Shown one piece after another: positions 2,182-53,620 of a stretch of 64,000 nucleotides of DNA (the stretch's first letter is position 1; each line of letters begins with the position of its first letter). The notes beneath the pieces were generated by a model. The model made no database searches. It saw nothing but the letters and a program-made list of their open reading frames with translations, and had not been told where the DNA came from. Both the position numbers and the translations under genes were made by a program. The stretch covers positions 1 through 64,000 of the forward strand of contig CAMYJO010000009.1 of the NCBI GenBank assembly GCA_947258755.1. Direction: 5' to 3'. The stretch is from an uncultured Gammaproteobacteria bacterium. Its GTDB lineage: Bacteria; Pseudomonadota; Gammaproteobacteria; JAADHQ01.

Positions 2182-2199
2182 TAGATACGGGAAACCATT

Positions 2200-3403: not shown

Positions 3404-3442
3404 GTCTGAGTGACCTTTAACAAGCATTGAGAACTATAACAG

Positions 3443-4654: not shown

Positions 4655-4735
4655 TCGAGCTTATTTGTTATTCATTACAGACGATATCCATAATGGCGTG
4701 AGAACGACTGGATATTAGGCTTTTATCACCTTCAG

Positions 4736-4770
4736 ACCCGGATATACTTGTATATCCGGGTTTATTTTTC
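4736..4770 (+). terminator. Rho-independent terminator/attenuator-like hairpin downstream of dsrP
   Basis: Perfect 11-bp stem ACCCGGATATA-cttg-TATATCCGGGT (4736-4746/4751-4761) followed by ttattttt. Confidence 0.8.
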
Positions 4771-4783
4771 AGGAGGCATATTA

Positions 4784-5785
4784 ATGTACACAGAACATCC
4801 ATTTGCAGAATTCGTCCGCATCCTGGGCAAGGGTAAAAACGGCTCGCGCTCCCTGACCATGGACGAAGCCTATAACTCTATGAAAATGATTCTGGCCGAT
4901 GAAGTCACGCCCGAGCAATTAGGCGCCTTCCTGATGCTATTACGTGTCAAGGAAGAGACGCCGGAAGAAGTAGCAGGCTTTGTTAAGGCGGTAAAGGAGT
5001 CCATTTCGGTCCCTGCCAATATGCCTGAAGTCGATCTCGACTGGTCTTCCTACGCCGGTAAAAAAAGACAACTTCCCTGGTTTATCCTGAGCGCACTGGT
5101 TCTGGCCGAAAACGGGGTTAAAATATTCATGCATGGAGCCGCTGGACATACAGCCGGCAGAGTCTACACCAAAGATATCATCGGTAAATTCGGTTTTAAT
5201 AACTGCACTAATATGGACGAGGTTGCACAATCGATTAGCTCGCAGAATTTTGCCTATATGGATATCGAAGCGCTGTGTCCGGCCATGCATAAAATAATTG
5301 AGCTCCGGCCGTTCCTGGGCCTGCGCTCACCGGTACATACCGTTTCCAGGATGCTGGATCCTTTTTCGGCGACGTATAATTTTGAGGGGATATTTCACCC
5401 TGGCTATCGACCGATGCATCAGGAAGCGGCATTACTACTTGATATGAAGCATGTTGCCGTTGTTAAAGGCGATGGCGGTGAGATTGAACGTAACCCTGAC
5501 ATGGCTTGCCTGGTGCAAAGCGTTCATGATGGTGAGCTGAGCGATGAGGAATGGCCCGCCATGTTTGCACGGCGTCACATGCGCGATGATGAAATGAACA
5601 TAGACCGTCTACTAGGCCTATGGAATGGAAGCATTGACGATGAATACGGCGAAGCCGCTGTCTATGGCACGCTTGCCATAGCGCTGAAGCTAATGGGGCG
5701 TGCCTCATCAATGAATGACGCGGAAGCGCAAGCAAAAGCTATGTGGGACGCGCGCACTAAAAACAAATACGGCGCAGCCGCATAA
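4784..5785 (+). CDS. TrpD2/YbiB-like glycosyl transferase (anthranilate phosphoribosyltransferase-fold) family protein
   Basis: MYTEHPFAEFVRILGKGKNGSRSLTMDEAYNSMKMIL... family signature; AGGAGG Shine-Dalgarno at 4771; the ORF-track start at 4748 lies inside the hairpin. Confidence 0.85.
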   Translation: MYTEHPFAEFVRILGKGKNGSRSLTMDEAYNSMKMILADEVTPEQLGAFLMLLRVKEETPEEVAGFVKAVKESISVPANMPEVDLDWSSYAGKKRQLPWFILSALVLAENGVKIFMHGAAGHTAGRVYTKDIIGKFGFNNCTNMDEVAQSISSQNFAYMDIEALCPAMHKIIELRPFLGLRSPVHTVSRMLDPFSATYNFEGIFHPGYRPMHQEAALLLDMKHVAVVKGDGGEIERNPDMACLVQSVHDGELSDEEWPAMFARRHMRDDEMNIDRLLGLWNGSIDDEYGEAAVYGTLAIALKLMGRASSMNDAEAQAKAMWDARTKNKYGAAA

Positions 5786-5801
5786 GTTAGCGCCTTAAGC
5801 C

Positions 5802-7205
5802 ATGTCACACCTGCTCATATCTGCTGCGCACAAATCATCCGGCAAGACCACTGTTTCTATTGGCCTGACTGCCGCGCTACGCTCGATGGGTAAGCAGGTG
5901 CAGACATTCAAGAAAGGGCCTGACTATATCGACCCCATGTGGTTGGGTCGCGCCGCTAATCGACATTGCTACAACCTCGATTTCTATACCATGCAGGAAT
6001 CCGAAATTGTCAGTAAATTCGAACAACATATGGTCGATGCAGAGATTGGTCTCATTGAAGGCAACAAAGGTCTTTATGATGGTCTCGACCTGGACGGCAG
6101 TAATAGTAATGCCGCACTGGCTAATCTACTTGGTGCACCAGTCGTACTGGTCATTGACTCACGTGGCATGACCAGAGGAATCGCCCCACTGGTTCTCGGC
6201 TATCAACAGTTCGATAAAGATATCAATATTCAAGGTGTCATCTTTAATCAGGTCGGTGGTAGCCGGCATGAGAGTAAATTACGCGCCATCCTTGAGCATT
6301 ACACCGATGTACGCGTACTCGGTGCTATCCATAAGGATGAAAAACTCAACATCGATGAAAGACACCTGGGCCTGATTCCCAGCAATGAAGAAAACCACGC
6401 CGACCAAAAAATAAGGTATATCGAGCAACGCATACAGGAACAGGTCGACCTAGATCAGCTCATATCAATATCCAACTCAGCCAAAGCCCCTACAAGAACT
6501 GCTAATATCACCCTGGAGAACAAGCAGGCAACCAGTAAATCAATAAAAATCGGTATTTTCAGGGACGAAGCATTTGGCTTTTACTATCCCGATGACCTCG
6601 AAAGCATGCAACAATATGGCGCACAGATTATCGAAATCAATAGTCTGCACGACACTCATCTACCAGAGATTGATGGATTGTTTATTGGTGGGGGTTTCCC
6701 CGAGACACAGATGCAGGCCATGCATGCCAATGCTGCCTTGCGAGCAGCTGTAAAGGAAGCTATCGAAAATGGACTGCCCACCTACGCGGAATGCGGAGGC
6801 CTGATGTACTTGAGTCGCAGCATCAGCTGGAAGGATGAAAAATATGACATGGCCGATGTCATTCAGGGTGACATCATCATGGAAAACACACCGCAAGGCC
6901 GTGGTTATATTCAATTACAGGAAACAACACAGCACCCGTGGGACAGCAATCGTAAGCTTGAGACTGTATTTGCGCATGAATTCCATTATTCCAGGCTGTC
7001 TAATTTAGACGCGCACTATGATTATGCCTATAAGGTCCTAAGGGGAACGGGTATTGATGGCGCGCATGATGGTTTGATCTATAAAAATCTATTAGCCAAT
7101 TATGGTCATCTCCGCAACACCAGCAGCCATGAATGGGTCAAACGATTCATTGACTTTATTAATAGTAAAAAATCAACGCGCCAGCCTATGGCACTTTCAT
7201 CATAA
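5802..7205 (+). CDS. dsrN: DsrN, cobyrinic acid a,c-diamide synthase-like (siroheme amidase)
   Basis: CobB/CbiA-like N-terminal ATPase (SSGKTTVSIGL) and C-terminal glutaminase (YAECGGLMYL); dsr context. Confidence 0.92.
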   Translation: MSHLLISAAHKSSGKTTVSIGLTAALRSMGKQVQTFKKGPDYIDPMWLGRAANRHCYNLDFYTMQESEIVSKFEQHMVDAEIGLIEGNKGLYDGLDLDGSNSNAALANLLGAPVVLVIDSRGMTRGIAPLVLGYQQFDKDINIQGVIFNQVGGSRHESKLRAILEHYTDVRVLGAIHKDEKLNIDERHLGLIPSNEENHADQKIRYIEQRIQEQVDLDQLISISNSAKAPTRTANITLENKQATSKSIKIGIFRDEAFGFYYPDDLESMQQYGAQIIEINSLHDTHLPEIDGLFIGGGFPETQMQAMHANAALRAAVKEAIENGLPTYAECGGLMYLSRSISWKDEKYDMADVIQGDIIMENTPQGRGYIQLQETTQHPWDSNRKLETVFAHEFHYSRLSNLDAHYDYAYKVLRGTGIDGAHDGLIYKNLLANYGHLRNTSSHEWVKRFIDFINSKKSTRQPMALSS

Positions 7206-7244
7206 TCACAGTAAACATGACTTCATGATTTAAAGGGTAATACT

Positions 7245-7562
7245 ATGTTAACGATCACAGAGGCGGCAGCCAGTAAAATCATCGAACAATCAAAGCAGAC
7301 TGATGCACTCGATCTGGCACTTAGAGTGGCAGCCAAGACCAATCAGGATGGCAGCTTCGACTATGGCATGGGCTTTGATGAAAACAAGGAAAATGACGTT
7401 AAAACCAGTCAATATAATGTTGAAATCGTCATGGATCCACAAAGTGCTGAGTTACTCGACGAAGCCACCATGGATTATGTTGAGATCGAACAGGGTCAGT
7501 TTCATTTCATCTTCTCTAATCCAATAGATCCGAATTATATTCCGGCCAAAAAGAGCAAATAA
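7245..7562 (+). CDS. dsrR: DsrR, A-type (IscA-like) scaffold homolog without cysteines
   Basis: 105 aa IscA-like fold, no Cys in translation, immediately after dsrN. Confidence 0.88.
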   Translation: MLTITEAAASKIIEQSKQTDALDLALRVAAKTNQDGSFDYGMGFDENKENDVKTSQYNVEIVMDPQSAELLDEATMDYVEIEQGQFHFIFSNPIDPNYIPAKKSK

Positions 7563-7580
7563 TTTCAACCTGTTGCCTAT

Positions 7581-9224
7581 ATGACTACTCTCCTGAAAAA
7601 ACCTGCACAATCCATTGACCCGGAAAAGAGCGGATCAATAACGCAGGATTGGCGTATCAAAGCCAGGGCAATGATACATAGTGGTTTATTTTGCCCAATC
7701 ATTGGACTTACTATTGTCGTCTTTCTTCTCGGAATTAGTAGCCTGCTGTACGATTTGTTCCCGGACAACATCCACTATCTTTATATAAGTCAGATCGTGC
7801 TCATTATCCTGGCCATCGTTCATATCGGCATCCTGTTACACCGAATTCATCATCAACTGATGATGCCACTTTCACATCTCAAGGAATGGGCACTACAAAT
7901 GCGTAAGGGCAATCTGTCAGCAAGGATACCCGTACCCCCTTCTGGTGACTTTTCGTCATTGGCAAATGATATCAATACGCTCAGTGTCACCCTTAAAAAA
8001 CTGTCCAGCGAGATGGACGACCAGGTTTCAAAACAAACCGAAAGAATTGGACAGAAAAACAGATCGCTTGAAATCCTTTATGATGTAGCGGCCAGCATTA
8101 ATATTTCCCGAGACCTTGATGACCTGCTGGTTCGTTTTCTCCGAATCATGAATGATGTTGTCCATGCCAAGGCAGCAACCCTACGACTCCTCACTGATGA
8201 CGATCAAATGCTATTGATTTCCAGTGTCGGCCTCAGTGCGGAGGTCGTCGAAAAAGAGAAACTGGTACCGGTCCAACGCTGCCTATGTGGACAGGCCGCC
8301 ACTGATGGCGACATATTGTCCCAACAAAGTGTCAAGGAATGCAGCTTGCTGGCGGGACACTCTTTCTTCGAAAATGACGACATAGAAATGATTGCAGTCC
8401 CCCTGCAATATCGTGGTGAAACGCTGGGTGTTTACAACCTGTTCATCGAAAAACCTGGGCTTGTCGACCGAGAAGATATCAAGGACCTGCTCATCAGTAT
8501 CGGACGCCACATGGGTATGGCGATTGAGAAAAGTCGACTGGATGCCGAAGCCAATAAAATATCGATCGTCCAGGAACGTAATATGCTATCCAGCGAGTTG
8601 CATGACTCGCTGGCTCAGACATTGGCCAGCCTCAAATATCAGGTGGCAAACCTCGATGATTCCATTAACGGTGGCGATGAACTGACGGCTGAACGTGAAA
8701 TTGCCCAGATCGAAAGCACACTGGATGAGGCCTATACAGAGTTGCGCGAACTAATCGCACATTTCCGCGCGCCCTTTGATCAACGTGGACTGGTAGAATC
8801 GATTGAAAAAGCAGTAGACCGCTTCCGCAAGGAGACCGGTATACTGATATTCTTCCAAAACGAATGGGGACAAGAAGAACTCCCCTCTACCCTGGAAATG
8901 CAAATACTGCGTATTGTGCAGGAGTCGCTCAATAATATCCGTAAACACAGCAAGGCACATGCGGTTCGTATCCTGTTGCGCGGCAATAAATCAGATAAGC
9001 ATCTACTCATGATAGAAGATGATGGCACAGGCATCGGAGAGCCTTTATTGGATGGAAAACCAGGAGAGCATGTCGGTCTATCCATCATGCAAGAGCGCGC
9101 GCAACGACTGGGTGGAGAATTACAAATTGAAAGTGAAGTTGGTGAAGGTACCAGGATAATATTACATTTCAGTTCACCCCAAAGTAGCCAACAGAACCTA
9201 CTGGATCTGATATATAAATCATGA
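7581..9224 (+). CDS. NarX-type sensor histidine kinase (two TM, HAMP, GAF, HisKA_3, HATPase_c)
   Basis: HAMP after TM segment; GAF region with cysteines; SELHDSLAQTLASLKYQ H-box; C-terminal ATPase. Confidence 0.9.
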   Translation: MTTLLKKPAQSIDPEKSGSITQDWRIKARAMIHSGLFCPIIGLTIVVFLLGISSLLYDLFPDNIHYLYISQIVLIILAIVHIGILLHRIHHQLMMPLSHLKEWALQMRKGNLSARIPVPPSGDFSSLANDINTLSVTLKKLSSEMDDQVSKQTERIGQKNRSLEILYDVAASINISRDLDDLLVRFLRIMNDVVHAKAATLRLLTDDDQMLLISSVGLSAEVVEKEKLVPVQRCLCGQAATDGDILSQQSVKECSLLAGHSFFENDDIEMIAVPLQYRGETLGVYNLFIEKPGLVDREDIKDLLISIGRHMGMAIEKSRLDAEANKISIVQERNMLSSELHDSLAQTLASLKYQVANLDDSINGGDELTAEREIAQIESTLDEAYTELRELIAHFRAPFDQRGLVESIEKAVDRFRKETGILIFFQNEWGQEELPSTLEMQILRIVQESLNNIRKHSKAHAVRILLRGNKSDKHLLMIEDDGTGIGEPLLDGKPGEHVGLSIMQERAQRLGGELQIESEVGEGTRIILHFSSPQSSQQNLLDLIYKS

Positions 9225-9886
9225 AAGTTATTCTCATCGATGACCACGCACTGTTCCGCATTGGACTGGAAAGTATCCTCGAGCGACGTGGAGTAAGCGT
9301 TATTGCCTCTCTGGGTGACGGTGAAGAAGGTATCCGCCTGGCTCAAGAACAGAAACCCGATATTGTCCTGCTGGATATGCGCATGCCACTTCTATCAGGC
9401 ACCCAGGTGCTGGGTAAACTCCGCACAGTCAATAGTGCTATCCCTGTCGTTATGCTAACAACCAGCAATGAAGAGACTGACCTGATAGAGTCATTGAGAA
9501 ATGGCGCGCAAGGCTATCTGCTGAAGGACATGGATCCTGATGAACTGGTTACCTCATTGCATGATGTATTGCGTGGAAAAACAGTAGTCGCACCGGAACT
9601 GACCAACGTTCTTGCAAAGGTAGTGCAACAAGGTGACAACAAACAAGAAGACAAAAGCAGTACATTTGCTGAACTGACACCACGTGAACATGAAATACTC
9701 TGTCACCTTGCCGAAGGGCAAAGCAACAAGGTTATTGCCCGCAACCTGGGAATATCAGATGGCACCGTGAAATTACACGTCAAGGCCATATTACGTAAAT
9801 TGGATGTGCATTCACGAGTAGAAGCTGCTGTTATCGCTGTCGAGCAGCAATTATGTGACAAGTCGAAAAACTCCAATCAATCATAG
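9221..9886 (+). CDS. NarL/LuxR-family response regulator
   Basis: Receiver domain (IDDHALFRIGLE, DIVLLDMRMP) plus LuxR HTH (LTPREHEILCHLAEGQSNKVIARNLGISDGTVKLHVKAI); ATGA overlap with kinase. Confidence 0.93.
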   Translation: MKVILIDDHALFRIGLESILERRGVSVIASLGDGEEGIRLAQEQKPDIVLLDMRMPLLSGTQVLGKLRTVNSAIPVVMLTTSNEETDLIESLRNGAQGYLLKDMDPDELVTSLHDVLRGKTVVAPELTNVLAKVVQQGDNKQEDKSSTFAELTPREHEILCHLAEGQSNKVIARNLGISDGTVKLHVKAILRKLDVHSRVEAAVIAVEQQLCDKSKNSNQS

Positions 9887-9893
9887 ATTTTCC

Positions 9894-10370
9894 ATGGAGC
9901 CTGAAATGAAAAGCTTTGCCAACCTGATCGATGATGTTTTACCGGAAATAACTGAAATTTTTCCCTGGGATCTAGATGAGAAACTAAAGAGCAATCCTGA
10001 TATTACCTTGCTGGATATCCGTGAGCCTTATGAATTCGAGGTTATGCGTATCAAAGGCTCTATCAATGTGCCCAGAGGTGTACTTGAATCTGCCTGTGAT
10101 TGGGGATTTGAAGAGACCGTACCGGAAATTGCCTGTTGTCGTGACCGTGAGGTTGTTGTTATATGTCGCTCAGGTAACCGCACTGCATTGGCAGCATATA
10201 CCATGCAGCAGATGGGATATAATAACGTGGCCTCACTAAAAACCGGCCTGACCGGATGGAATGATTATGAATTACCCCTGGTAAATAATGAAGGTAAAGT
10301 TGTCGATATAGAAGAAGGTGACGTCTTTTTCGAGCCCAAGGTTAGGCCTGAACAGATGCCTCCAAAATAG
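9894..10370 (+). CDS. Rhodanese-domain protein
   Basis: LLDIREPYEFEVMRIKGSINVP and active loop CRSGNRT. Confidence 0.9.
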   Translation: MEPEMKSFANLIDDVLPEITEIFPWDLDEKLKSNPDITLLDIREPYEFEVMRIKGSINVPRGVLESACDWGFEETVPEIACCRDREVVVICRSGNRTALAAYTMQQMGYNNVASLKTGLTGWNDYELPLVNNEGKVVDIEEGDVFFEPKVRPEQMPPK

Positions 10371-10440
10371 GTTTTACAACCTACTGGTTACACCAGAGAG
10401 ATAGCATGCATTGTTTTTAATTTGTAATGATATTCCCAAT

Positions 10441-10476
10441 AAAAACGGGCAGTGAACACTGCCCGTTTTTATTGTC
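10441..10476. terminator. Bidirectional intrinsic terminator between convergent genes
   Basis: 14-bp arms AAAAACGGGCAGTG / CACTGCCCGTTTTT. Confidence 0.9.
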
Positions 10477-10499
10477 CAACTATTGCTTAGGACGCCCGC

Positions 10500-12410
10500 T
10501 TAAATCTTGAACCTACTCACCAGCAATTGCAGATCAGATGCCAAACCAGCCATTTCCTGACTGGCATTGGATGTCTGACTAGCAGCATCTGCCGATTCTT
10601 CAGCAACATCATTGATACTAATAATATTTTTATTAATCTCTTCTGCTACTGAGCTCTGCTCATCTGCTGCACTGGCAATTTGCATATTCATATCATTAAT
10701 ATTGGTGATCGAAGAAGTAATGGTATCCAGTGAGGAACCTGCAGTTTGTGCACTGGTGACGCCGACTTCTGCCTGTTTCTTACTGTCTTCAATCGCCTTG
10801 ACCGCTTCATGTGCATCAGCCTGCAAACGACCTATCATATCGTTTATCTCTTCAGTTGACTGCTGTGTTCTACTAGCCAGGGTTCGTACCTCATCGGCTA
10901 CCACAGCAAAGCCTCTACCTTGCTCACCTGCACGCGCGGCCTCAATAGCGGCATTCAATGCCAACAGGTTAGTCTGCTCGGCGATACCGCGGATAACATC
11001 CAGTACTGTACCGATACTCTGACTGTCTTCCTCCAGTCGCTGAATAACATCGGATGCTTCATTAATCTCGCCGGCAAGGGCGTTAATGGCATCAACTGTG
11101 GCCTGCACGACTTCGTGTCCATGACGCGTCTCTTCATCAGCATTGTGTGCCGACGATGCGGCTTCTGATGCATGACGCGCAACCTCTTGCACGGTTGAAG
11201 TCATCTCATTCATGGCAGTAGCGACTTGCTCAGTCTCTGAACGCTGTCGCTGTATACCCATATTGGTACTTTCTGTAATGGCAGACATTTCTTCAGCCGC
11301 CGCACCCAGTTGTCCTGTGGAGCTACTGATATGCTTAACCATCTCGTGTACACGTTCGACGAACTGGTTAAAGGATTTAGACAATTCGCCTAATTCGTCA
11401 TTGCTTGTTTCTTCAAGTCTCTGCGTCAGGTCACCTTCACCCTCAGCAATATTATTCAAGGCAAGCACTGTTTTCTTGATACGACCAGAGATACCACGTC
11501 CAATAAACCAGGCCACCAACAAGCCAACAACAATGGCAACAACACCAATAATAACGGTGACGTTACGGGCATCCGTATGGGCTTGTACGTAGGAACTACG
11601 ATCCATGATCAGTTCCAGTATTGCCGTTGGGTTACCTGAAAAGTCCTTGACCGATTCTGTGTAAATTGCTACTGGCGTATCACCGATGACTGATTCGCGA
11701 ATAACTGATTCACCATTCATGACACTTTCCAAGGTAGACGTTTCTACCTCTAGCGGACTAGCTAATGTAGACGCAACAGACTTGAAACCAGCACCATCCC
11801 TTATATACATAACTACGTCTGCTTTAAACTCATTTTTAAAACGCTCGAGAAATTTATTACCCAGCGCTAGACCAAATTCTACACTGCCCTGGTGTTCGCC
11901 ATTATGTGAAACAGGTACTACACCACGTATACCGATTCCAGCTACACCCTTCTCCAGACCGCGTATTGGTTTTTTTGTCGCGTTCGCCTGAACGACAGTC
12001 TTACGAAATCCTGAAAGATCATCACCAAACTTTTTCGGCTTATGGATGCGCAAAAATGAATGACCATTAGGGGTATGAAACTGGAACTGTTTCACGCCAT
12101 AACGTTCTTTTAATATTTTAAATGATGGCAGCATCGCATCCAGTACACCTTGCCTATCGCGTGCGGCAAATTTTGCACTAATCTCATCCAGACTGGCTAC
12201 CTGTAATGCCAGGGCTTCAGCCATATGCGATTCAGTAGTGACCGTTTGCTGTAAAGCTGAATGCATTTGTTTTAACTGCATCAATTGGGCATCTTCCGAG
12301 ATCTTGCCGATATTTCCCAGCACCACCGGGAGGATTACCGCAATGACCAGAATTAATACTGCTCCAAATCCAAGCTCGATCTTTTTTGAAATATCTAAAT
12401 TCTTAAACAT
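10500..12410 (-). CDS. Methyl-accepting chemotaxis protein with Cache-type periplasmic sensor
   Basis: TM-periplasmic domain-TM-HAMP and the conserved MCP hairpin tip ([37 protein letters not shown]). Confidence 0.95.
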
Positions 12411-12745
12411 GTCTATATTACCTGCGCATCAATAAATAGTATTCAGCCATAACCTAGCCCGCTGCCAAGATGCAACGGAAGCACAGGTGATTCCTGTACA
12501 AGTTATCTACTTATCGGAAAAATGTGCTGATACTTGAGTCTGGAACAGTGAAAAATGACTATCTTGTAGCTGAATTTGCTATCACAGCCAATCTATTAGC
12601 AAAATATCACGTAATTCCATTAAATATCATAGAGATATGAAAGATAGATACTTTCTATTACTTATTATTTACATGGATAAAGTAGGCGCGATGTCCGGTG
12701 CCTGCGCCAGGCTTATACCTTCAGAGGATAATATTCAGAAACGAC

Positions 12746-14134
12746 TTAGTGCTGGAACCAGTTAAGCCGTTCATGCAGCGTGACAACCTTACCGACGATA
12801 ATCAAGGTCGGCGGCTTTATGTCAGAGTCTTTCACCGCTTGCGGCATGCTCTCGAGGACACCGGTGACCACTTTCTGCTCCGGCGTTGTAGCCTTTTGCA
12901 CAAGCGCAATCGGTGTATCAGACGGCATGCCGTGGGCGATAAGCTCGCGGCAAATGACGTCCAGTCCCTGCAATCCCATGTAGAAAACGATGGTCTGGTT
13001 CGGTTGTGCCAGACCATCCCAGTTCAGGTTCATGGAACCATCTTTTAAATGTCCGGTGGCAAAGACCACTGATTGCGAATAATCTCTGTGCGTGAGCGGA
13101 ATACCTGCATAGGACGCGGCCCCTGAGGCTGCCGTTACTGCGGGAACCACTTGAAAAGGCACCTCTTGTTGCATCAGCGTATCGATCTCTTCGCCGCCAC
13201 GACCGAAAATAAACGGGTCGCCACCCTTCAGCCGACATACCTTCTTGCCTTCCTTACCAAGCCTGGCAAGCAGATGATTGATATCTTCCTGTGGCACGGC
13301 ATGATTAGAGCGTTCCTTTCCGACATAAATTCTGTCCGCATCACGTCTGACCAGATCGAGTATTTGTTTTGACACCAAACGATCATAGACGACGACATCC
13401 GCCTGTTGCATTAGACGTAGTGCTCTAAAAGTCAGCAAATCTGGATCGCCAGGCCCGGCACCCACCAGATAGACCTCGCCAACATCATGATGCTGCTTAT
13501 TTTGCGCATCCTTAAATTCCTGGCTTAGATACTCACGTGCACGCGCATCCTGTCCTGCCATGACCATTTCAACTACCGGACCTGACAGTATTCTCTCCCA
13601 GAAATAGCGTCGCTCATCCACACTGGAGAAAACCTGTTTGGCCATTTCGCGGTTTTCTTCCATGAGTTCACCGAGGCGACCATACGCAGACGGAATCATT
13701 GATTCCAGTTTTGAGCGTAAAGTACGTGCCAGCACTGGTGACGAACCGCCTGTTGAAATGGCAATCTGAACCGGCGAGCGATCGATAATAGAGGGCATAA
13801 TAAAACTACCCAAATCGGGATTGTCGACCACATTGACCGGTACATTGTGTTGATTGGCCCATGACGAAATAGATTCATTGACGGCATGATTATCGGTTGC
13901 CGCAATAACCAATGCCTTGCCCGATAAATCATCCTCAGTGTATTCACCCTGACGATACTCGATAATATTTTGCTCTTGCAGTTCTTTCAGGTTGTCACAC
14001 AACTCGGTTGAAATAACCGTGACCCTGGCTCCGGCATCAAGTAACAGGCTGACTTTTCGCTCGGCAACATTACCGCCGCCAATAACCAGACAAGGGCGCT
14101 CGCGGATATTCAGAAAAATCGGTAAGAAATCCAT
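12746..14134 (-). CDS. cysG: Siroheme synthase (uroporphyrinogen methyltransferase/precorrin-2 dehydrogenase/ferrochelatase)
   Basis: N-terminal CysG NAD-binding domain (MDFLPIFLNIRERPCLVIGGGNVAERK) and SUMT domain (VYLVGAGPGDPDLLTFRALRLMQQADVVVYDRLV). Confidence 0.96.
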   Translation of the reverse strand: MDFLPIFLNIRERPCLVIGGGNVAERKVSLLLDAGARVTVISTELCDNLKELQEQNIIEYRQGEYTEDDLSGKALVIAATDNHAVNESISSWANQHNVPVNVVDNPDLGSFIMPSIIDRSPVQIAISTGGSSPVLARTLRSKLESMIPSAYGRLGELMEENREMAKQVFSSVDERRYFWERILSGPVVEMVMAGQDARAREYLSQEFKDAQNKQHHDVGEVYLVGAGPGDPDLLTFRALRLMQQADVVVYDRLVSKQILDLVRRDADRIYVGKERSNHAVPQEDINHLLARLGKEGKKVCRLKGGDPFIFGRGGEEIDTLMQQEVPFQVVPAVTAASGAASYAGIPLTHRDYSQSVVFATGHLKDGSMNLNWDGLAQPNQTIVFYMGLQGLDVICRELIAHGMPSDTPIALVQKATTPEQKVVTGVLESMPQAVKDSDIKPPTLIIVGKVVTLHERLNWFQH

Positions 14135-14263
14135 ACAACTAACCTGCAATTAATTTTGATGACATAATGAAAGTACAGCGATAAACGACAGCATTATACA
14201 TTTTTTAGCCCAACGGCTACCAGTCGAGCCATGAATTTTGCGAATTTCATGGCTGATATAGGG

Positions 14264-44495: not shown

Positions 44496-45251
44496 TTGAA
44501 ACAATGGTATGAACAGCTTTTCGAGAATTACAGTAAAAAATATGATGAAGAGTCTTTCACTCAAGGAACAATGGGTGAGTGTGACTTTATCGAGAAAGAG
44601 ATAAATCATATTGAGCGCACTCAGATACTTGATATTGGATGTGGAACAGGAAGGCATTCAATTGAACTGCGCAAAAGAGGATATTCAATTGAAGGTATCG
44701 ATTTATCTCAAACGCAAATCGAACGAGCGATTGAAAAATCAAAAACGGAAGGATTAAAAATCGATTTTAAGGTGGCTGACGCCAGAAAGCTGGAGTTCGA
44801 ATCGGAGTTTGATCTCGTTATTATGATATGCGAGGGCGCGTTCTCTCTCATGGAAACAGATGACATGAATTACCAAATTCTGAAAAACGCATCAAAAGCA
44901 TTAAAACCAAAAGGAAAACTGATCTTTACAGCGCTGAATGCACTATTCCCCTTATATCACTCCGTAAAAGACTTTATAAACTCGGGAGCAGAAAAAGGTG
45001 CGACTTCCGAAAACACATTCGACTTAATGACATTTCGAGATCACTCAGTTTATGAAACAGAAGATGATTCAGGAAACAAGCTATCACTGAAATGTAATGA
45101 ACGCTACTACGCACCTTCAGAAGTAAGTTGGCTGTTAAAGTCCCTAGGTTTTACCATGGTGGATATTTACGGGGCCAAGCTTGGTGAGTTTTCAAGAACG
45201 GATCGTTTAACCACCGAGGACTATGAAATGCTGGTAATCGCGGAGAGATAA
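44496..45251 (+). CDS. Class I SAM-dependent methyltransferase
   Basis: ILDIGCGTGRHSIELRKRGYSIEGIDLS motif I. Confidence 0.9.
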   Translation: MKQWYEQLFENYSKKYDEESFTQGTMGECDFIEKEINHIERTQILDIGCGTGRHSIELRKRGYSIEGIDLSQTQIERAIEKSKTEGLKIDFKVADARKLEFESEFDLVIMICEGAFSLMETDDMNYQILKNASKALKPKGKLIFTALNALFPLYHSVKDFINSGAEKGATSENTFDLMTFRDHSVYETEDDSGNKLSLKCNERYYAPSEVSWLLKSLGFTMVDIYGAKLGEFSRTDRLTTEDYEMLVIAER

Positions 45252-45555: not shown

Positions 45556-46467
45556 TCACGGTGCCTGTAAGCCGTGCTCGTCATACAGGCTTTGCGCCGT
45601 ATTACCTTGCATGAATGTAACGAAATCCGCACCCCACTCGCCTCCGTCCGCGACGAGCCCTATGTGATACCGGGTTGTAGGGTTTGAGGGGGAGCGCTCC
45701 CCTGATTGTACGCCTCCAATATCCACGAGTTCAAATATTTCGGGAAAGATTCGGGAATAGCGAAGTGCTAAATGGTAGTAGATTATCGCTGCATCTGCGT
45801 AGCCCGCACCTATCAATTCCGGTATTTCCCTGTGGTGGATGATTTGTGAATGTATCGTCTTTGGGCCTGCCGTGAACAGTTTCGCCACCACTGCATCTCC
45901 ATCCGAACCGGCTTCCAGTGCCAAGCCTCTGGCGGCTTCCGCATAAACTGCGTAACTCGCCTTTTCGGTCACCGGGTTTGAGCACGCCACCGTGATATCG
46001 TCGGATAGCAGGTCTGAGATAGAAGCGATACCTTTCGGATTGCCTTTGCGCACCAGGATGACATTACCTCGGCTCTCGGCAAACGGTACGTGCTGGGTAA
46101 TTAAATTAGCATCTACCAAGTTATCCAGAATATTGCCTGGAGCGATAAAGACATCCGGCTTGCGACTGATGCGCAGGTTACCTAATACAAGGCCGTCGCC
46201 CACCAATGCATCGACCAGTGGCGCGGGCGGTGTGGTTGTATAGAACACATCAACCACAGCCGGGTTTGCAGCAAGGAAGGCGCGCACGGAGGCTTCCAGC
46301 GCCATATGGTGATTGCCATCAGAGAATACAGCCAGACCAGCCTTAGCCGGATCGCCATGGAAGTCCAACACCAGGTTGCTGCCGGACGCGGCAAAGGCGC
46401 GTACAGAATCTTCTGGGTATTGCGCGGCCTCTGGTGGCCAGAACAGAGGGCTGTTTAATGAGGTCAT
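45556..46467 (-). CDS. Substrate-binding-like protein (ModA/PBP type II related) with no evident signal peptide
   Basis: 303 aa; ESRGNVILVRKGNPKGIASISDLLSDDITVACSNPVTEKASY; starts MTSLNSPLFWPPEAAQYPEDS. Confidence 0.75.
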   Translation of the reverse strand: MTSLNSPLFWPPEAAQYPEDSVRAFAASGSNLVLDFHGDPAKAGLAVFSDGNHHMALEASVRAFLAANPAVVDVFYTTTPPAPLVDALVGDGLVLGNLRISRKPDVFIAPGNILDNLVDANLITQHVPFAESRGNVILVRKGNPKGIASISDLLSDDITVACSNPVTEKASYAVYAEAARGLALEAGSDGDAVVAKLFTAGPKTIHSQIIHHREIPELIGAGYADAAIIYYHLALRYSRIFPEIFELVDIGGVQSGERSPSNPTTRYHIGLVADGGEWGADFVTFMQGNTAQSLYDEHGLQAP

Positions 46468-46476
46468 GAATTAGCC

Positions 46477-47274
46477 TTAAGCAGCGCCTGACCCAAAAAG
46501 ACTGCGCAGATGGTCGGATTGTACGATATGGATGTGCTGATTCACGGCGCGGACCGCACCCATTTTGCGCAGACGCGCCAAGCTCGTAGTGACGGTCTGG
46601 CGGCTAGCCCCGATCAAGTTGGCAATGTCCTGATGTGTCAGACGCACGTTTACGCACAACTCACCGTTGGTGGAGCCGGTACAGCTGCGTGTGCCCGATG
46701 ACACTGCTGCTAAACGCACCAGCAAACGAGCGATGCGGGTTTCTACGTTGTCGGAGGCCAGCCCCGCCAAGACCTGACCTAAGGCACGAACCCGTGCTGA
46801 CAAAATACCGATAGCCTTCATTGCAGCTTCCGGGTGTGCACCCAGAAAATCGATAAAGTCTCTGTGGCGGATAGAATAGACCTGGGTTGCTTCATTAGCC
46901 ACGGCATAGCTCTGTCGGTCATTGCCCCTCCAGAGTTCGGCCATGCCGAAGATTTCGCCAGGGAAGCTGAACCACAGAATGGTTTCCTTACCCGTGGTCG
47001 AGCTCTGAAACAAACGGATGCAACCGCTGGCTACAATATAGACGTCGTTGGAATGGTCACCGGCACGGAACAGATGATCTCGGTACTTCAGATCCAGGTA
47101 GCGAGAGCATTTCAGCAAATCCCGCGTCTCCGCTTCTGACAGGCTAGAAAGGAAATTTGCATGAGCATCCGACCAGGCATCCCCCTCATCCTCGATACTG
47201 AAAAAATCACTGGTCCCAAGAGTCGTTCTGATTCCTGGAAGCGGATCCATAATGTGTTTACTGATGGTGCTCAC
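46477..47274 (-). CDS. CRP/FNR-family transcriptional regulator
   Basis: cNMP-binding fold (GDHSNDVYIVASGCIRLFQSS) and HTH (LTHQDIANLIGASRQTVTTSLARLRKMG). Confidence 0.94.
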   Translation of the reverse strand: MSTISKHIMDPLPGIRTTLGTSDFFSIEDEGDAWSDAHANFLSSLSEAETRDLLKCSRYLDLKYRDHLFRAGDHSNDVYIVASGCIRLFQSSTTGKETILWFSFPGEIFGMAELWRGNDRQSYAVANEATQVYSIRHRDFIDFLGAHPEAAMKAIGILSARVRALGQVLAGLASDNVETRIARLLVRLAAVSSGTRSCTGSTNGELCVNVRLTHQDIANLIGASRQTVTTSLARLRKMGAVRAVNQHIHIVQSDHLRSLFGSGAA

Positions 47275-47469
47275 TGGTAAATGTCCTTCCTACCTCTGCG
47301 ATACCCATCATGGCATGTCAGGCCCTCTGTTGCTAGAGGTTATATTGTTATAAAAATGAAATAAAAACGGCGGGCTTGATACGTGTAAAGTCACAGCTAC
47401 TATTTTGTTTATTAAATATTACTTTAAAGGTCTATTCCAATTTTCTAATATCGACCCACCTGGGTAAAC

Positions 47470-47514
47470 ATTGTCACCTAGGCGACAATATTACCGACTC
47501 ACATTCGCTAGTAT
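47470..47514 (+). promoter_or_regulatory. CRP-family operator and -10 of tctC promoter
   Basis: Palindrome ATTGTCACCTAGGCGACAAT (47470-47489) and TAGTAT (47509-47514). Confidence 0.7.
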
Positions 47515-47596
47515 CAAGTCCTCAGAATGAAAAATGGCCGTTCGTAATATAAGGGGCCGGATAACCAAGATAATCCGATAGTATGGAGGAGTGACA

Positions 47597-48535
47597 ATGA
47601 AAAAACTGCTTATGATTGGACTCGGCCTTATGATGGCTGGAGTCATTACCAGTATCAATGCAGCTGAATACCCTAACCGTCCCATTACGTTCATGACCAT
47701 GACTCAACCTGGCGCACAGATCGACCGCCTGACACGTGGCCTGAGTCAACGTATGAGCAAGATTTTAGGACAGCCCATTAATGTCAAAAACGTGACCGGT
47801 TCTCACGGCACTGTCATGGCGACCGAACTTAGTAAGTCCAAACCCAATGGTTATAGCCTCGGCGTAACTTCATTAACCGCCTATACTTACGCACCCCACC
47901 ATGCCAAGCTGATTTACAAGCCTGACGACTTCGACTACCTGACGCTGGTAGCTCTGAACTCTAGTGGTTTCATCTCCAAGAAAGACAAACCATGGAATAC
48001 ATTGAAAGAGGCCTTTGCCTGGCACAAGAAGAACAACAAGGCCATGGTCGCCATGTTTCATGGTGCCGATGACCGCGATGCAATTATACGCATCGCAAAG
48101 AAGGAAGGTGTGAAACTATCGCTGATCCCATCCAAAGGCGGCCCTTCAGTCATCAAAGCCGTTACCGGTGGTCATGCTTCTGTTGGTTACGTAGGCGCTA
48201 TCCTTTATAAACACGTAGAAGCCGGTTCGATCAAGTTAATCGCTGCGGCCCTGGGTGATCGTCTACCGCCGATTCCTGATGTACCTACCTTACGTGAACA
48301 AGGCTACGACGAGCAGGTAGAAATGATCGTCGCCCTGGTTGCTCCGAAGGGACTGGATGCTGGTACAAAGGCCAAACTCCTGGCCGCCGCTAACAAGCTG
48401 GCGAACGACAAGGAAACACAGGAATTCATCACGGGCAACCTGTTGATGCGACCGGTTAAGTGGGGAGAAGCACATGCTGATAACACAGCAAAAGAACTGT
48501 ATAAGACCTTCGGTGAACAAGCGAAAATGAAATAA
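47597..48535 (+). CDS. tctC: Tripartite tricarboxylate transporter substrate-binding protein (TctC/Bug)
   Basis: Signal peptide; YPNRPITFMTMTQPGAQIDRLTRGLSQRMSKILGQPINVKNVTG; GGAGG Shine-Dalgarno. Confidence 0.92.
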   Translation: MKKLLMIGLGLMMAGVITSINAAEYPNRPITFMTMTQPGAQIDRLTRGLSQRMSKILGQPINVKNVTGSHGTVMATELSKSKPNGYSLGVTSLTAYTYAPHHAKLIYKPDDFDYLTLVALNSSGFISKKDKPWNTLKEAFAWHKKNNKAMVAMFHGADDRDAIIRIAKKEGVKLSLIPSKGGPSVIKAVTGGHASVGYVGAILYKHVEAGSIKLIAAALGDRLPPIPDVPTLREQGYDEQVEMIVALVAPKGLDAGTKAKLLAAANKLANDKETQEFITGNLLMRPVKWGEAHADNTAKELYKTFGEQAKMK

Positions 48536-48548
48536 ACCGTATCGCCGG

Positions 48549-48567
48549 ACCGGAACGCGTTTCCGGT
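48549..48567. other. tctC-tctB intercistronic hairpin
   Basis: ACCGGAA-cgcgt-TTCCGGT without a T-tract. Confidence 0.65.
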
Positions 48568-48627
48568 TCGACGTCATCGATTCCCTTTATGCTCCCAGCG
48601 AAAGGCTGTGAGAAAGAGGTAAAACAT

Positions 48628-49146
48628 GTGACAAGAATAATAAGAGATGCGATCGCCTACCTGCTGATCGTCGGATTTTGTATTTTAATGCTCACCTGGG
48701 CAATTCCAACCTACACACCTGCTTATCCAGGTTATGGTGCCTCCCCTGCACTCGTACCCAATGTAGCTGTTTGCGTTATGTTGTTCATGGCATGCCTTTC
48801 GCTAATACGTGTAGGGGTTGCTTTGTGCATGAAGAAACCGATAGTGGTGGAAGAAAGCGAGTTCCCGGAAGACCTGGAAGAGGATGGCGGTTTTACACAG
48901 GTAGGCCGGGTGAAAATAGTCCATCTTGTCAACCTCATGGTCCCGTGCGTACTACTGGTGGTAGCGATCCAATACATTGGCTATATGCTAGCATCTTTCG
49001 CCTTCCTGATGGTTCTCCAGTACGTCATCGGTAGTCGCAAGTGGACTCAGTCGATAGTGGTATCGATCATCCTGACGGCAGTACTCTTTATTGTTATGCG
49101 CTACGGCTTCGGTGTGCCTGTTCCGGGTCCACAGATTTTCGAATAA
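48628..49146 (+). CDS. tctB: Tripartite tricarboxylate transporter small membrane subunit (TctB)
   Basis: Four-TM small protein between tctC and tctA; GTG start with GAGG upstream. Confidence 0.85.
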   Translation: MTRIIRDAIAYLLIVGFCILMLTWAIPTYTPAYPGYGASPALVPNVAVCVMLFMACLSLIRVGVALCMKKPIVVEESEFPEDLEEDGGFTQVGRVKIVHLVNLMVPCVLLVVAIQYIGYMLASFAFLMVLQYVIGSRKWTQSIVVSIILTAVLFIVMRYGFGVPVPGPQIFE

Positions 49147-49174
49147 CAATGACAATAAGCGGAAAACAAACTTT

Positions 49175-50722
49175 ATGGAAATGATCATTGCGGGGTTGCT
49201 GGACTCCATCTCACCTGCCAGTTTGATGTTTGTATTACTCGGTGTAGCCGTCGGTGTACTTATCGGCGCCATCCCCGGCATCAATGGCCCCATGGCCATC
49301 GCTTTATTCATTCCTATTACTTATTACATGACACCTCTCACTGCCGTCGGTTTCCTGGTGGGACTGAACAAGGGTGCGTTCTTTGGTGGTGCTGTGTCGG
49401 CGGTATTATTGCGTACACCGGGTACGCCAGAAGCTGCGGCGACCTCCTGGGATGGATACCCGCTTACCCAGCAGGGAAAGGGTGAAAAGGCTCTCCGTAT
49501 GGCGCTCTATAGCTCGGTAGCCGGTGACTTCATCTCCACCATTGTGCTGATCTTGATCGCTGCACCCCTTGCCGCTATCGCGTTATTCATGGGGCCGTCA
49601 GAAATTTTCGCGCTGATTTCGCTGGCCCTGACGGTTATCGCGGGTATCGGTACGACTTCAATCTGTCGTGGGTTGATCGCGGCTGGCTTCGGCATTCTGC
49701 TGGGCCTGATTGGCACCGAACCGGTAACCGCATTACCCAGGCTTACCTTTGATGTTTATCAACTTGGTAGTGGCTTATCGCTCATACCAGTAGCCATTGG
49801 CCTGCTGGCATTTTCAGAAATCCTGCTGCAAGTGGAAAAGTTTACTGTCAAGGGTGGCAGCGCTCAGTCTGCTAACAAATTCTCTTCCAAACTCGAAGAT
49901 CGACTGATTACGTTTAAGGAATTTTTCTCAAACATCAAAACATTATTACGCGGTAGTCTGATCGGCATTGGTGTCGGCGCCATGCCAGGCCTGGGTGCGC
50001 CGGTGGCGTCGTTCATGTCCTATGACCAGGCAATGAAGCGATCCAAACACAAGAAAGAATTCGGAAAGGGCCGCCTGGAAGGTATAGCCGCATCTGAATC
50101 CGCCAATAGCTCAGTGGTGGCTTCCAGCTTGATTCCTTTGTTTGTTCTCGGCATCCCCGGTAATTTGGCCGCTGCCATGTTAATGGGAGCATTCATGATT
50201 CACGGAATGCAACCAGGTCCCTTGCTGTTTAAGGAAAATGCCCAGCTCATGTACGGTATCTATGGCAGCCTTGTGTTGGCTAGCCTGTTCCTACTCGTAA
50301 TTGGACGCTTCGGACTTCGTTACTTCTGTAAGGCGGTAGATATCCCCGCAATGATCTTGTACCCGATCGTGATATTCACCTGCATTATGGGCGCTTACCT
50401 GGGCAAGTCATCCATGTTCGACGTGGGCATTATGCTCACGTTTGGATTCATCGGTTACTTCATGCGAAAGTTCGACTATTCCTATGTCGCCTTTCTAATT
50501 GGCTTTATCCTTGCGCCAGAATGGGAGCGTTCACTACAACAAGTAGTGATCATTTCAGAACACGATCCATTCATGTTCATCCAACGCCCCGTTGCCATGG
50601 GGCTGATGGTACTGACCTTATTCGTTATTGCACGTACCTTCTGGTGCAGCATCGGCGCCGGACGCAAGAAAAAACAAGTGGAAGCCGCTACTGCTGCCGC
50701 TGGGCAACACAAAGCGGACTAA
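49175..50722 (+). CDS. tctA: Tripartite tricarboxylate transporter large membrane subunit (TctA)
   Basis: LGVAVGVLIGAIPGINGPMAIALFIPITY and GIAASESANSSVVASSLIPLFVLGIPGN motifs. Confidence 0.95.
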   Translation: MEMIIAGLLDSISPASLMFVLLGVAVGVLIGAIPGINGPMAIALFIPITYYMTPLTAVGFLVGLNKGAFFGGAVSAVLLRTPGTPEAAATSWDGYPLTQQGKGEKALRMALYSSVAGDFISTIVLILIAAPLAAIALFMGPSEIFALISLALTVIAGIGTTSICRGLIAAGFGILLGLIGTEPVTALPRLTFDVYQLGSGLSLIPVAIGLLAFSEILLQVEKFTVKGGSAQSANKFSSKLEDRLITFKEFFSNIKTLLRGSLIGIGVGAMPGLGAPVASFMSYDQAMKRSKHKKEFGKGRLEGIAASESANSSVVASSLIPLFVLGIPGNLAAAMLMGAFMIHGMQPGPLLFKENAQLMYGIYGSLVLASLFLLVIGRFGLRYFCKAVDIPAMILYPIVIFTCIMGAYLGKSSMFDVGIMLTFGFIGYFMRKFDYSYVAFLIGFILAPEWERSLQQVVIISEHDPFMFIQRPVAMGLMVLTLFVIARTFWCSIGAGRKKKQVEAATAAAGQHKAD

Positions 50723-50737
50723 GTAAAAGCGCACTAT

Positions 50738-50781
50738 TTGTCACTTGAGTGACAGTAGCGGACTAGACATCACGCTAAACT
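50738..50781 (+). promoter_or_regulatory. Second CRP-family operator and -10 upstream of DUF3604 gene
   Basis: TTGTCACTTGAGTGACA (50738-50754) and TAAACT (50776-50781). Confidence 0.7.
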
Positions 50782-50906
50782 TGGGCCAAACGACTCAATG
50801 AAAAGACTGGGCGGCTTTTTCTGCCAAGCAGCAAGGGTTGAGCTGGGACGTAAATAAATCCTGTGACTTAATAGTATAAAAGATTACAAGTAAAGAGGTA
50901 GATTCG

Positions 50907-53297
50907 ATGAAAAAAATGACTGATGCGGAATTGAAGGAAATATTAGGCGACTCGTATACTGCACCTGTAGGGCTGTATGCAAAGACCAAGGACATGCCAT
51001 TTCTTGGCTCGGTCACTTGTAATATAGAAGAGATGGTTGCAGGCTCATGGCAAGAAGTAGTGATTGTTTATACTTTGGGTCAATCAGGCATGGCCGATGG
51101 CTCCTGGTTCAAGGCAACCTTCCGCTTTTATTCTGATTGGGAATTATTTCAAACCACCGACCCTAAAGCCGCGAACTATGTGTCTGCAGAATATCATGCA
51201 GCAGCAACAGTCGAAGGACAAAGCCCTGCGTCAGTACAAAAACTATCTGTTCGATTCGACCAGAAAGGTCATGAGCGTCCATTCCAGAAGGCGGTCATCG
51301 TCGATACGTATGACGGCTACTTAAAAGCCGGTGATCAGATTGTTATCCGCATGGGTGATCGCCGCTTTGGTGGACCGGGTACACGCGTACAGACTTTCAC
51401 AGAAGAGTTTTTTAAATTCCGCTGCTATGCAGACCCACTCGGTACTTCACGCTTTGCTGCGGTTGAGCCTGATCTGACTATTAATATCAAACCGGGTGTA
51501 CCCGCCCTATTGCAATGGTCAGGATCGCGTCTGGTCAAACAGGGTGAGAAAATACCATTACGTATTCGTGCAGAAGATGAATGGGGCAACACCTGCTGGT
51601 CACGCCCTGACAAGGTACACGTTAAGGCAACCCTGGATGGCAAGGATTGTTACGAAAAAGACATCATCTTACCCGAAGAAGGTTGGTCTGTACGTTTGCT
51701 CGAAGATATGCCCACGAATAAACCGGGCGAGCTAGTCGTTACCGCTATCATGCCCGATCACCCTGCCGTCAAACTACATACTTTTTACGTCACGATTGAC
51801 AAGGAACTTGATTTCCCACGAATTTACTATACCGACCTGCATGTGCACTCGGAAGATACGGTTGGTACCAACTCCACCAGTTACAACTTGAACTATGGTC
51901 GTGATGTGACGGGCCTGGATGTGCTGGCCTTTGCCCACAATGACTTCAATATCACCACCGAGCGCTGGAATAAAACCGTTGAGTTAATTCGGGAAATCAC
52001 CAAAGACGGTGAGTTCGTCGCCTATCCGGGTACGGAATGGTGTGGTAGCTCCTGTGCCGGTGGCGACCATAATGTCATCTTCTTGCATGATGATGAACCT
52101 GAGTTTCCTTATTTGAAGAATGGTGAACATGTTCGATCAGTTGACTGGAATGAAGACTCTGGAACGACCGAAGCCATCCCAGGTGCTTGGCCATTAGAAG
52201 AACTTTGGGCTGCCTATGCCCATGACCCAGAAGGTCATTTGCTTACCCCTCACATTGGTGGTCGTCGCTGTATCATGGACTGGCATCACCCTGAATTAGA
52301 AAAATTAATAGAGATTGGTTCTGCCTGGGGCCACTTTGGCTGGTTATATCAGGACGCGATGTCTCGTGGCTACAAAATCGGTGCCAGTATGGCTGGTGAT
52401 GAACATCGTGGCCGTTGCGGCGGTGGTGTACCAGGTACAGCAGTATTTGGGACCAAGGGTGGTATTTCCGGCGTAATCTCTCCAGCTTTATCGCGCAAGG
52501 CAATTGGTAAAGCCCTACGTGCACGCCATACCTTTGCTTCTACCGGTGAGCGCACATTTGGATTAATAAGCTGTGATAAGTACATCATGGGCGACGAGTT
52601 CGATCATAAAGGTGCTGCACAGGTAAATTATCGTTTCCTCGGAGATGTAGGCTGGGATGAAATAATCGCCTACGATCAGGATGGTGAGATCTGGAAACGC
52701 GACCTACAGAAAGAGCTAGGTTACTCCGATCGAAAGATTCGTTTCCGCTGGGGCGGCGCGCGGATTAAAGACCGTTATCGCTGGGCTATATGGAAAGGCA
52801 AAATTACCATTATTGATGCAGTTATCAACGAATTTGAAGGACTGGGATTTGAACACAAGGAAGAAACCTGTTGGCGCGAAAATACAACCACCATTGGTTT
52901 CAAGAGCGATACATACGGTGATGTAGATGCCATTGAAATGGATGTTTCGCACCTGGCGACTGCAAAAATTAAAATTGAAGGCACCATTGATGGCTATGTA
53001 AAAGTCGGCGACCCATTAAAAGGCAACCCATTTGTACACTGCCCGACTTTTGAATGGGAATTCACCGGCGCAGAGTTACTGGAAGCTGCACGATTGAAAA
53101 AAGATCTTCCAGGCGTTGAAATGTTTCTAGCCATGGAGCGCATGAGTGACTCCAATTCACCGCGTGAAGTAACTGGTAATTTTGAAGTGGCACCTAAGAA
53201 TGGTCCACATGGTCATCGTCCAATTTATGTCGTTGCTCGCCAGGTCGATGATGCAAAAATATGGACATCATCACTATTTATTAATTTTAAAAAATAA
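50907..53297 (+). CDS. Large PHP-like metal-dependent protein, DUF3604 family
   Basis: 796 aa; YYTDLHVHSEDTVGTNS (HxH), LTPHIGGRRCIMDWHHPELEKLIEIGSAWGHFGW, GDEHRGRCGG metal-ligand-like motifs; N-terminal beta-rich domain. Confidence 0.85.
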   Translation: MKKMTDAELKEILGDSYTAPVGLYAKTKDMPFLGSVTCNIEEMVAGSWQEVVIVYTLGQSGMADGSWFKATFRFYSDWELFQTTDPKAANYVSAEYHAAATVEGQSPASVQKLSVRFDQKGHERPFQKAVIVDTYDGYLKAGDQIVIRMGDRRFGGPGTRVQTFTEEFFKFRCYADPLGTSRFAAVEPDLTINIKPGVPALLQWSGSRLVKQGEKIPLRIRAEDEWGNTCWSRPDKVHVKATLDGKDCYEKDIILPEEGWSVRLLEDMPTNKPGELVVTAIMPDHPAVKLHTFYVTIDKELDFPRIYYTDLHVHSEDTVGTNSTSYNLNYGRDVTGLDVLAFAHNDFNITTERWNKTVELIREITKDGEFVAYPGTEWCGSSCAGGDHNVIFLHDDEPEFPYLKNGEHVRSVDWNEDSGTTEAIPGAWPLEELWAAYAHDPEGHLLTPHIGGRRCIMDWHHPELEKLIEIGSAWGHFGWLYQDAMSRGYKIGASMAGDEHRGRCGGGVPGTAVFGTKGGISGVISPALSRKAIGKALRARHTFASTGERTFGLISCDKYIMGDEFDHKGAAQVNYRFLGDVGWDEIIAYDQDGEIWKRDLQKELGYSDRKIRFRWGGARIKDRYRWAIWKGKITIIDAVINEFEGLGFEHKEETCWRENTTTIGFKSDTYGDVDAIEMDVSHLATAKIKIEGTIDGYVKVGDPLKGNPFVHCPTFEWEFTGAELLEAARLKKDLPGVEMFLAMERMSDSNSPREVTGNFEVAPKNGPHGHRPIYVVARQVDDAKIWTSSLFINFKK

Positions 53298-53320
53298 CAA
53301 GTGCTTTATTCTCGTACTAC

Positions 53321-53346
53321 ATGCCACCTTCGTGTGGCATTTTTTT
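53321..53346 (+). terminator. Intrinsic terminator after DUF3604 gene
   Basis: ATGCCAC-cttcgt-GTGGCAT-TTTTTT. Confidence 0.9.
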
Positions 53347-53620
53347 GGCCACAAAATCTAGATCACAACATTTATCGACGCAGAAGACTATGTTTTGTAT
53401 GTAATTGCGTCACCCTATCACTGAACATATAGCCAAGAAAGGCGTTGCCTCCATAACTGTCAGTTCTTAGCCGGCAGGGCTTAACTACTCTTTCAAGTAA
53501 GCCGATCCTGACCAATACGACCAAACTATGCATTCATGCTTATTGGCGCCTCTACTGGATTGGTAAAAGCCGTACATTTATGAGAAAATACAGCGCTTTA
53601 TCTTAACCATTAGAGAGCCT

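Follow-up and report, generated by a model that had tools for sequence, protein, structure and literature searches.

A candidate co-regulated import-and-hydrolysis module built around a PHP-type metallohydrolase with exchangeable transporters

Organization of the locus

We analyzed 64,000 nucleotides of contig CAMYJO010000009.1 from an uncultured gammaproteobacterium (hereafter the window), in which a divergent locus at 45556-53346 encodes a transcription regulator, a leaderless binding-protein-fold protein, a tripartite tricarboxylate transporter and a PHP-type metallohydrolase, which would together make up a module for import and hydrolysis of a small anion. According to the list of open reading frames (ORFs) and a Pfam profile search of the window, all genes of the locus are intact and lie where a preliminary description of this DNA had placed them. 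The minus strand carries the gene for the leaderless protein of 303 amino acids (aa), which has a type II periplasmic-binding-protein (PBP) fold (45556..46467; SBP_bac_11, 74 bits against a cut-off of 25), and the gene for a CRP/FNR-family transcription regulator of 265 aa (46477..47274). Pfam found both a cNMP-binding domain and a Crp-type helix-turn-helix (HTH) in the latter, in agreement with the dedicated CRP-type regulator described earlier. On the plus strand, TctC (47591..48535; PF03401, 107 bits) is a periplasmic solute-binding protein with a signal peptide, TctB (48589..49146; PF07331, 54.8 bits) is the small membrane subunit, and TctA (49175..50722; PF01970, 461 bits) is the large one. 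All three exceeded the Pfam cut-offs, and the transporter is complete, as had been proposed. TctA probably starts at ATG 49175 (MEMIIAGLLDS...) rather than at TTG 49091 of the mechanical ORF. The hydrolase gene follows on the same strand (50907..53297) and encodes a protein of 796 aa without a signal peptide, a putative metallohydrolase of PHP type (DUF3604, CehA/McbA-like).

One palindrome, TGTCR-N6-YGACA, is present in two copies, as TGTCACCTAGGCGACA in the gap that separates tctC from the divergently oriented CRP gene (47472..47487) and as TGTCACTTGAGTGACA upstream of the hydrolase gene (50739..50754), substantiating the shared operators of the preliminary description. The locus does close in an intrinsic terminator on the plus strand (53321..53347), with a 7-bp stem, a 6-nucleotide loop and T7; 9 of 200 shuffled sequences folded equally well. 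The next gene downstream of the terminator is mfd. Rfam gave no matches in the window.

Conservation of gene linkage and exchange of the transporter

Related loci were collected from GTDB (80 loci, the best of 300 matches, which are related to each other) and from a class sample of 369 genomes. Neighborhoods were determined by gene clustering of the loci followed by a tblastn recount; a transporter was counted within 6.5 kb of the hydrolase gene, and the leaderless protein was counted in the class sample at >300 bits. Full-length orthologs of the hydrolase with 60-93% identity were found in the class sample and the GTDB scan, and the named records include Thiobacillus, Sulfuritalea, Thiohalocapsa, Rhodomicrobium, Acidiferrobacterales and Chromatiales. 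Two further groups came from plasmid records: an outer one sharing about 50% identity, in Rhizobium, Azospirillum, Klebsiella, Pantoea and Methylosinus, and a more distant one at about 28%.

A transporter lay beside the hydrolase gene in 73 of the 80 loci, most of the remaining loci being cut contigs. The tblastn recount placed the CRP gene in 56/80 and the leaderless protein in 48/80 loci (gene clustering had found the CRP gene near the hydrolase in 50). Among the loci with full flanks (n = 33), all 33 had a transporter, 31 the CRP gene and 24 the leaderless protein. In the class sample, the leaderless protein occurred in 16/369 genomes, and 15 of these 16 were among the 18 genomes carrying the hydrolase (p = 7e-23). 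The preliminary description had predicted that tct, CRP and ModA-like genes would recur beside hydrolase homologs and had staked its claim on the association with tct; the recurrence holds strongly, and the claim stands. Both linkage and co-regulation hold, on stronger grounds than first stated. Gene order and orientation differ among the relatives.

The transporter is the variable part of the module. TctCBA accompanied the hydrolase in 16 of the 80 loci. In 39 the transporter was TctA, alone or together with TctB; 6 combined TctA with a PhnD-like protein, and 12 had an ABC importer of SsuA/NMT1 type. Cut contigs account for some of the TctA-type counts. Tct and ABC importers have replaced each other at least seven times on the hydrolase tree. 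Whereas the window has all three subunits of a tripartite tricarboxylate transporter, relatives have lost TctC or the whole system, or have an ABC importer in its place. Judging by gene content, TctCBA is one of several interchangeable transporters for this module. In the group of about 50% identity, GntR stands in place of CRP and the importer is mostly of ABC type; in that of about 28% identity, either tctCBA with LysR or GntR, or GntR with an ABC importer, adjoins the hydrolase gene.

Two plasmids, a conjugative one of Klebsiella pneumoniae and one of Pantoea (L007 and L176), carry a GntR-ABC-hydrolase version in almost identical layout. Locus L086 is filed under Rhizobium sp. B91_maxbin.006, a metagenome-assembled genome (MAG), and its contig is practically Thiobacillus: its hydrolase branches 0.008 from that of T. 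thioparus, and it shares dnaN/gyrB/DUF494 neighbors with Thiobacillus. This locus is probably mis-binned, and L115, from a Spirochaetia MAG, may be so too.

Elsewhere in the window, a SAM methyltransferase gene at 44496-45251 was considered and rejected as a module member; it has no close counterpart at the relatives' loci. A class I SAM methyltransferase does lie directly 3' of the hydrolase gene in five loci (L059, L061, L066, L108 and L118), none of which contained a match to that of the window. The start of the window (229-14149) carries cysG and dsr-like sulfur-oxidation genes, named from our reading of the sequence as dsrL, dsrO, dsrP and a dsrN-like cobyrinate amidase; dsrA of this genome is located on a separate contig (G000:C43).

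Regulator and operator

The operator recurs in loci with the CRP gene. In 336 kb of CRP-type loci, we counted 62 sites upstream of the hydrolase gene, where a first-order Markov model predicts 1.5, and 51 of the 56 CRP-type loci had the operator. Related loci that lack the CRP module, mostly with GntR-type regulators, had no site in 319 kb. In 13 of the 80 related loci, the hydrolase gene had the operator ≤300 bp upstream. In the recognition helix of the regulator, RQ[TS] is conserved among 50 homologs, with R225 in 50/50 and Q226 in 49/50. The shared operator supports co-regulation of the module genes: the CRP/FNR-type regulator would control both directions by binding TGTCR-N6-YGACA at two places, one in the divergent promoter and one preceding the hydrolase gene.

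Scans of whole genomes gave a weak excess of operators elsewhere, with counts near those of a reversed-pattern control. Of the sites beyond the module, the three best were examined as marks of further regulon members; they lay in or over other ORFs, with no link to the module seen, and were treated as chance. Since the excess is weak and these sites are so placed, the regulon looks local.

The strongest form of the operator, TGTCGGCNNGCCGACA, seen in many module loci, equals the published consensus of the CooA operator (PMC545781), and in this the module loci resemble the CooA regulon. The regulator itself is a distant relative of CooA-1 (2hkx); among its PDB relatives, other CRP/FNR proteins of GlxR/CRP type match it better, and no coo genes were recognized near the module loci. 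The heme ligands of CooA are Cys75, His77 and Pro2. The columns conserved in ≥85% of the 50 regulator homologs, an alignment without CooA, contain no Cys, and their only His is H214, in the HTH.

A predicted PHP-type metallohydrolase at the border of DUF3604

The hydrolase passed the gathering cut-off of DUF3604 (PF12228) marginally, with 22.3 bits against 20.4, and its best-scoring stretch covered only 34 residues (profile positions 376-409 of 591) instead of the full length. The DUF3604 label given in the preliminary description is thus retained by score, although as a marginal assignment. Because the match is marginal, a PF12228 search of the whole genome of the window returned nothing at its threshold. 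Hydrolase homologs scored 25-59 bits against this profile, and those of about 28% identity scored 33-59 bits. With the NCBIfam profile of CehA/McbA metallohydrolases (NF038032), the hydrolase reached 23.7 bits and failed the cut-off of 80 bits, which 0 of 9 homologs passed. These two scores make it a remote relative of both families, and it appears to be only a borderline member of DUF3604. DUF3604 members of about 28% identity likewise adjoin tctCBA or ABC importers. The window protein, at about 800 aa, matches only 34 of the 591 profile positions.

The protein is predicted to consist of N-terminal beta domains, a PHP domain at about 305-550 and a C-terminal beta domain. The PHP-like metal ligands noticed earlier proved to be conserved: H312/H314, E377, H388, H449 and D498/H500, the putative ligands, are invariant or present in >90% of 37 homologs. 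At the sequence level, they correspond to the trinuclear-type ligand set of the PHP superfamily (HxH, Glu, His, His, Asp-x-His). Searches of PDB sequences with the hydrolase, as a single sequence and as a profile, gave no useful match to a solved structure.

CehA resembles the hydrolase in length (cehA is 2385 bp; PMC4850150), in its PHP-type domain and in the order of its four catalytic histidines (H313, H315, H453 and H495; PMC8292978), besides the weak profile match. The corresponding residues of the hydrolase, an HxH and two later His, would be H312, H314, H449 and H500, as assigned by order and position rather than by alignment. The spacing of the histidines differs, and cehA genes are described as adjoining insertion elements (PMC8292978), whereas the hydrolase gene of the window has a dedicated importer and a CRP gene.

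A leaderless protein with a binding-protein fold

The minus-strand protein had been described as a leaderless binding protein, and this was borne out: neither it nor its homologs have the signal peptide with which ABC periplasmic binding proteins are exported, and all start directly with a conserved cytoplasmic-type N-terminus. The motifs SDGNHHMAL, IHHRE and HLALRY are conserved, and 28 homologs share invariant motifs. The AlphaFold model had a predicted local distance difference test (pLDDT) score of 90, and Foldseek matched it to ModA, PEB3, AcfC and sulfate-binding proteins, with template-modeling (TM) scores to the target mostly of 0.6-0.78. The predicted match to the type II PBP fold of these proteins is confident. 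What sets the leaderless protein apart from them is that it lacks a signal peptide and an ABC permease of matching type, and that its histidine motifs and an N-terminal extension are conserved. These results indicate that it is a conserved ModA/PEB3-like family. The natural reading is that it binds a small anion inside the cell, and a role as sensor or enzyme is possible; THI5 and MqnA are examples of binding-protein-fold proteins that act as enzymes.

Genome context and the candidate substrate

All 18 genomes of the class sample that carry the hydrolase, which span 13 family codes, had a match to soxB or dsrA. soxB exceeded the cut-off in 16/18 carriers versus 148/369 genomes (p = 2e-5), and dsrA in 15/18 versus 114/369 (p = 4e-6). 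Sulfur genes were also found near the hydrolase gene in heterotrophs: ssuD, msuE and sfnG in Azospirillum B510; sfnB, sfnG and msuE in R. etli; msuE with a luciferase-like monooxygenase in another locus of the group of about 50% identity; soxC with cytochrome c in Methylosinus; and TauE elsewhere. Three new genomes were viewed after the organosulfur idea had arisen, and in two of them a luciferase-like monooxygenase lay ≤6 kb away, against an expectation of roughly 3-4% per 20-kb window (about p = 0.003 by our own estimate). This genome context, although circumstantial, points towards an organosulfur compound rather than a generic organic acid.

The luciferase-like monooxygenases near the hydrolase gene of Rhizobium C104 were dropped as evidence because this plasmid carries 12 of them in 404 kb. 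Distant homologs of the leaderless protein near soxB in three genomes (G169, G156 and G082) were examined and not taken as linked to it; one of them (L161, G169:C3:95624-96403) lies about 1 kb from soxB. Hydrolase neighbors seen at single loci (L094, L126 and L004) were a TauE/SafE exporter, a CitMHS/sulfate-type transporter, and soxC with cytochrome c.

Interpretation and alternatives

Co-regulated import and hydrolysis are well supported by this comparison of sequences. What the sequences show directly is that the genes are intact and linked, that transporters are exchanged, that the operator is present and that the metal ligands are conserved; operator binding by this regulator, the direction of transport, the hydrolysis itself, the part played by the leaderless protein and the organosulfur substrate are inferred. 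In the scheme that we propose, a small anion would enter through TctCBA, or through its counterparts in relatives (TctA(B), TctA with a PhnD-like protein, or the SsuA/NMT1-type ABC importer), and would be cleaved by the cytoplasmic PHP/DUF3604 metallohydrolase. The leaderless ModA/PEB3-like protein may bind the substrate or product in the cytoplasm as a sensor, carrier or auxiliary enzyme. The most likely substrate would be organosulfur, namely a sulfonate, sulfate ester, sulfamate or thiocarbamate-like anion, the sulfur of which would serve energy in sulfur oxidizers and assimilation in heterotrophs. For a self-contained, co-regulated module of this kind with an organosulfur anion as its substrate, we estimate a probability of about 0.5.

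Several observations weigh against this assignment. The link to sulfur oxidizers may come from habitat or autotrophy, in genomes that are not independent. The sulfur genes near the hydrolase differ in kind and position, and several loci (Klebsiella, Pantoea, Azospirillum TSH58 and Thiobacillus) have none nearby. The predicted model of the hydrolase is of low confidence around the active site and in the loops of the PHP domain, and Foldseek of the whole model gave only beta-sandwich matches, which we regard as noise. The characterized relatives CehA and McbA act on carbamate esters (PMC8292978) rather than on sulfur compounds.

The same module could instead handle an ordinary carboxylate, carbamate or ester as a carbon or nitrogen supply, its association with sulfur bacteria reflecting habitat only; we consider this quite possible, though we would not expect it. 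CehA and McbA, as the nearest characterized homologs, fit such a substrate, as do the PDB relatives of the window TctC, which include a terephthalate-binding protein and BugD, and the 28%-identity homologs of Sulfitobacter and Pseudosulfitobacter, which have tctCBA and fumarase or amidase genes as neighbors. However, sulfur-gene neighbors recur in unrelated heterotrophs, the co-occurrence with soxB and dsrA is strong, and sulfolactate is also among the compounds carried by Tct transporters.

It is unlikely that the PHP protein is a phosphoesterase and the imported compound phospho- or phosphonate-like. Many PHP proteins are phosphoesterases, the ligand set is of PHP type, TctA is paired with a PhnD-like phosphonate-binding protein in 6 loci, and PEB3, which the leaderless protein matches best in fold, was solved with bound phospholactate; but C-P lyase, phosphonatase and Pho-type neighbors were not recognized in the neighborhoods examined, and the PhnD family of Pfam covers other anions too. 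That the genes are adjacent by chance can hardly hold: a GC content of 0.54 in the two minus-strand genes against 0.47 in the hydrolase gene and the varying gene order and orientation would fit, and linkage across the 80 loci, the shared operator and the 15/16 co-occurrence contradict it.

Returning to an organosulfur substrate, a narrower proposal is that the module serves chemolithotrophic sulfur oxidizers as an undescribed organosulfur route, in which the PHP hydrolase would free an oxidizable sulfur species from the imported compound and the leaderless protein, with its conserved histidines, would be a second enzyme or a ligand sensor serving the CRP protein; we advance this tentatively and with some doubt.

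Significance

We classify the system as a catabolic module of importer plus hydrolase that is regulated, exchanges its transporter and has an unusual partner of binding-protein fold in the cytoplasm. No description of it was found in the open-access literature, a search outside which most subscription papers lie; in the same literature, DUF3604 appeared in one unrelated paper, and in none together with sulfur-oxidizing. Through the module, DUF3604, an unassigned enzyme family, becomes amenable to testing as a unit whose regulator, operator, transporter and partner protein are defined, and the module occurs in culturable genera such as Thiobacillus. As the hydrolase stays constant while transporters are swapped, the binding proteins of the importers offer a ready route to the substrate. 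If the substrate is indeed an organosulfur compound, the module would form a connection between dissolved organic sulfur and the sulfur lithotrophs.

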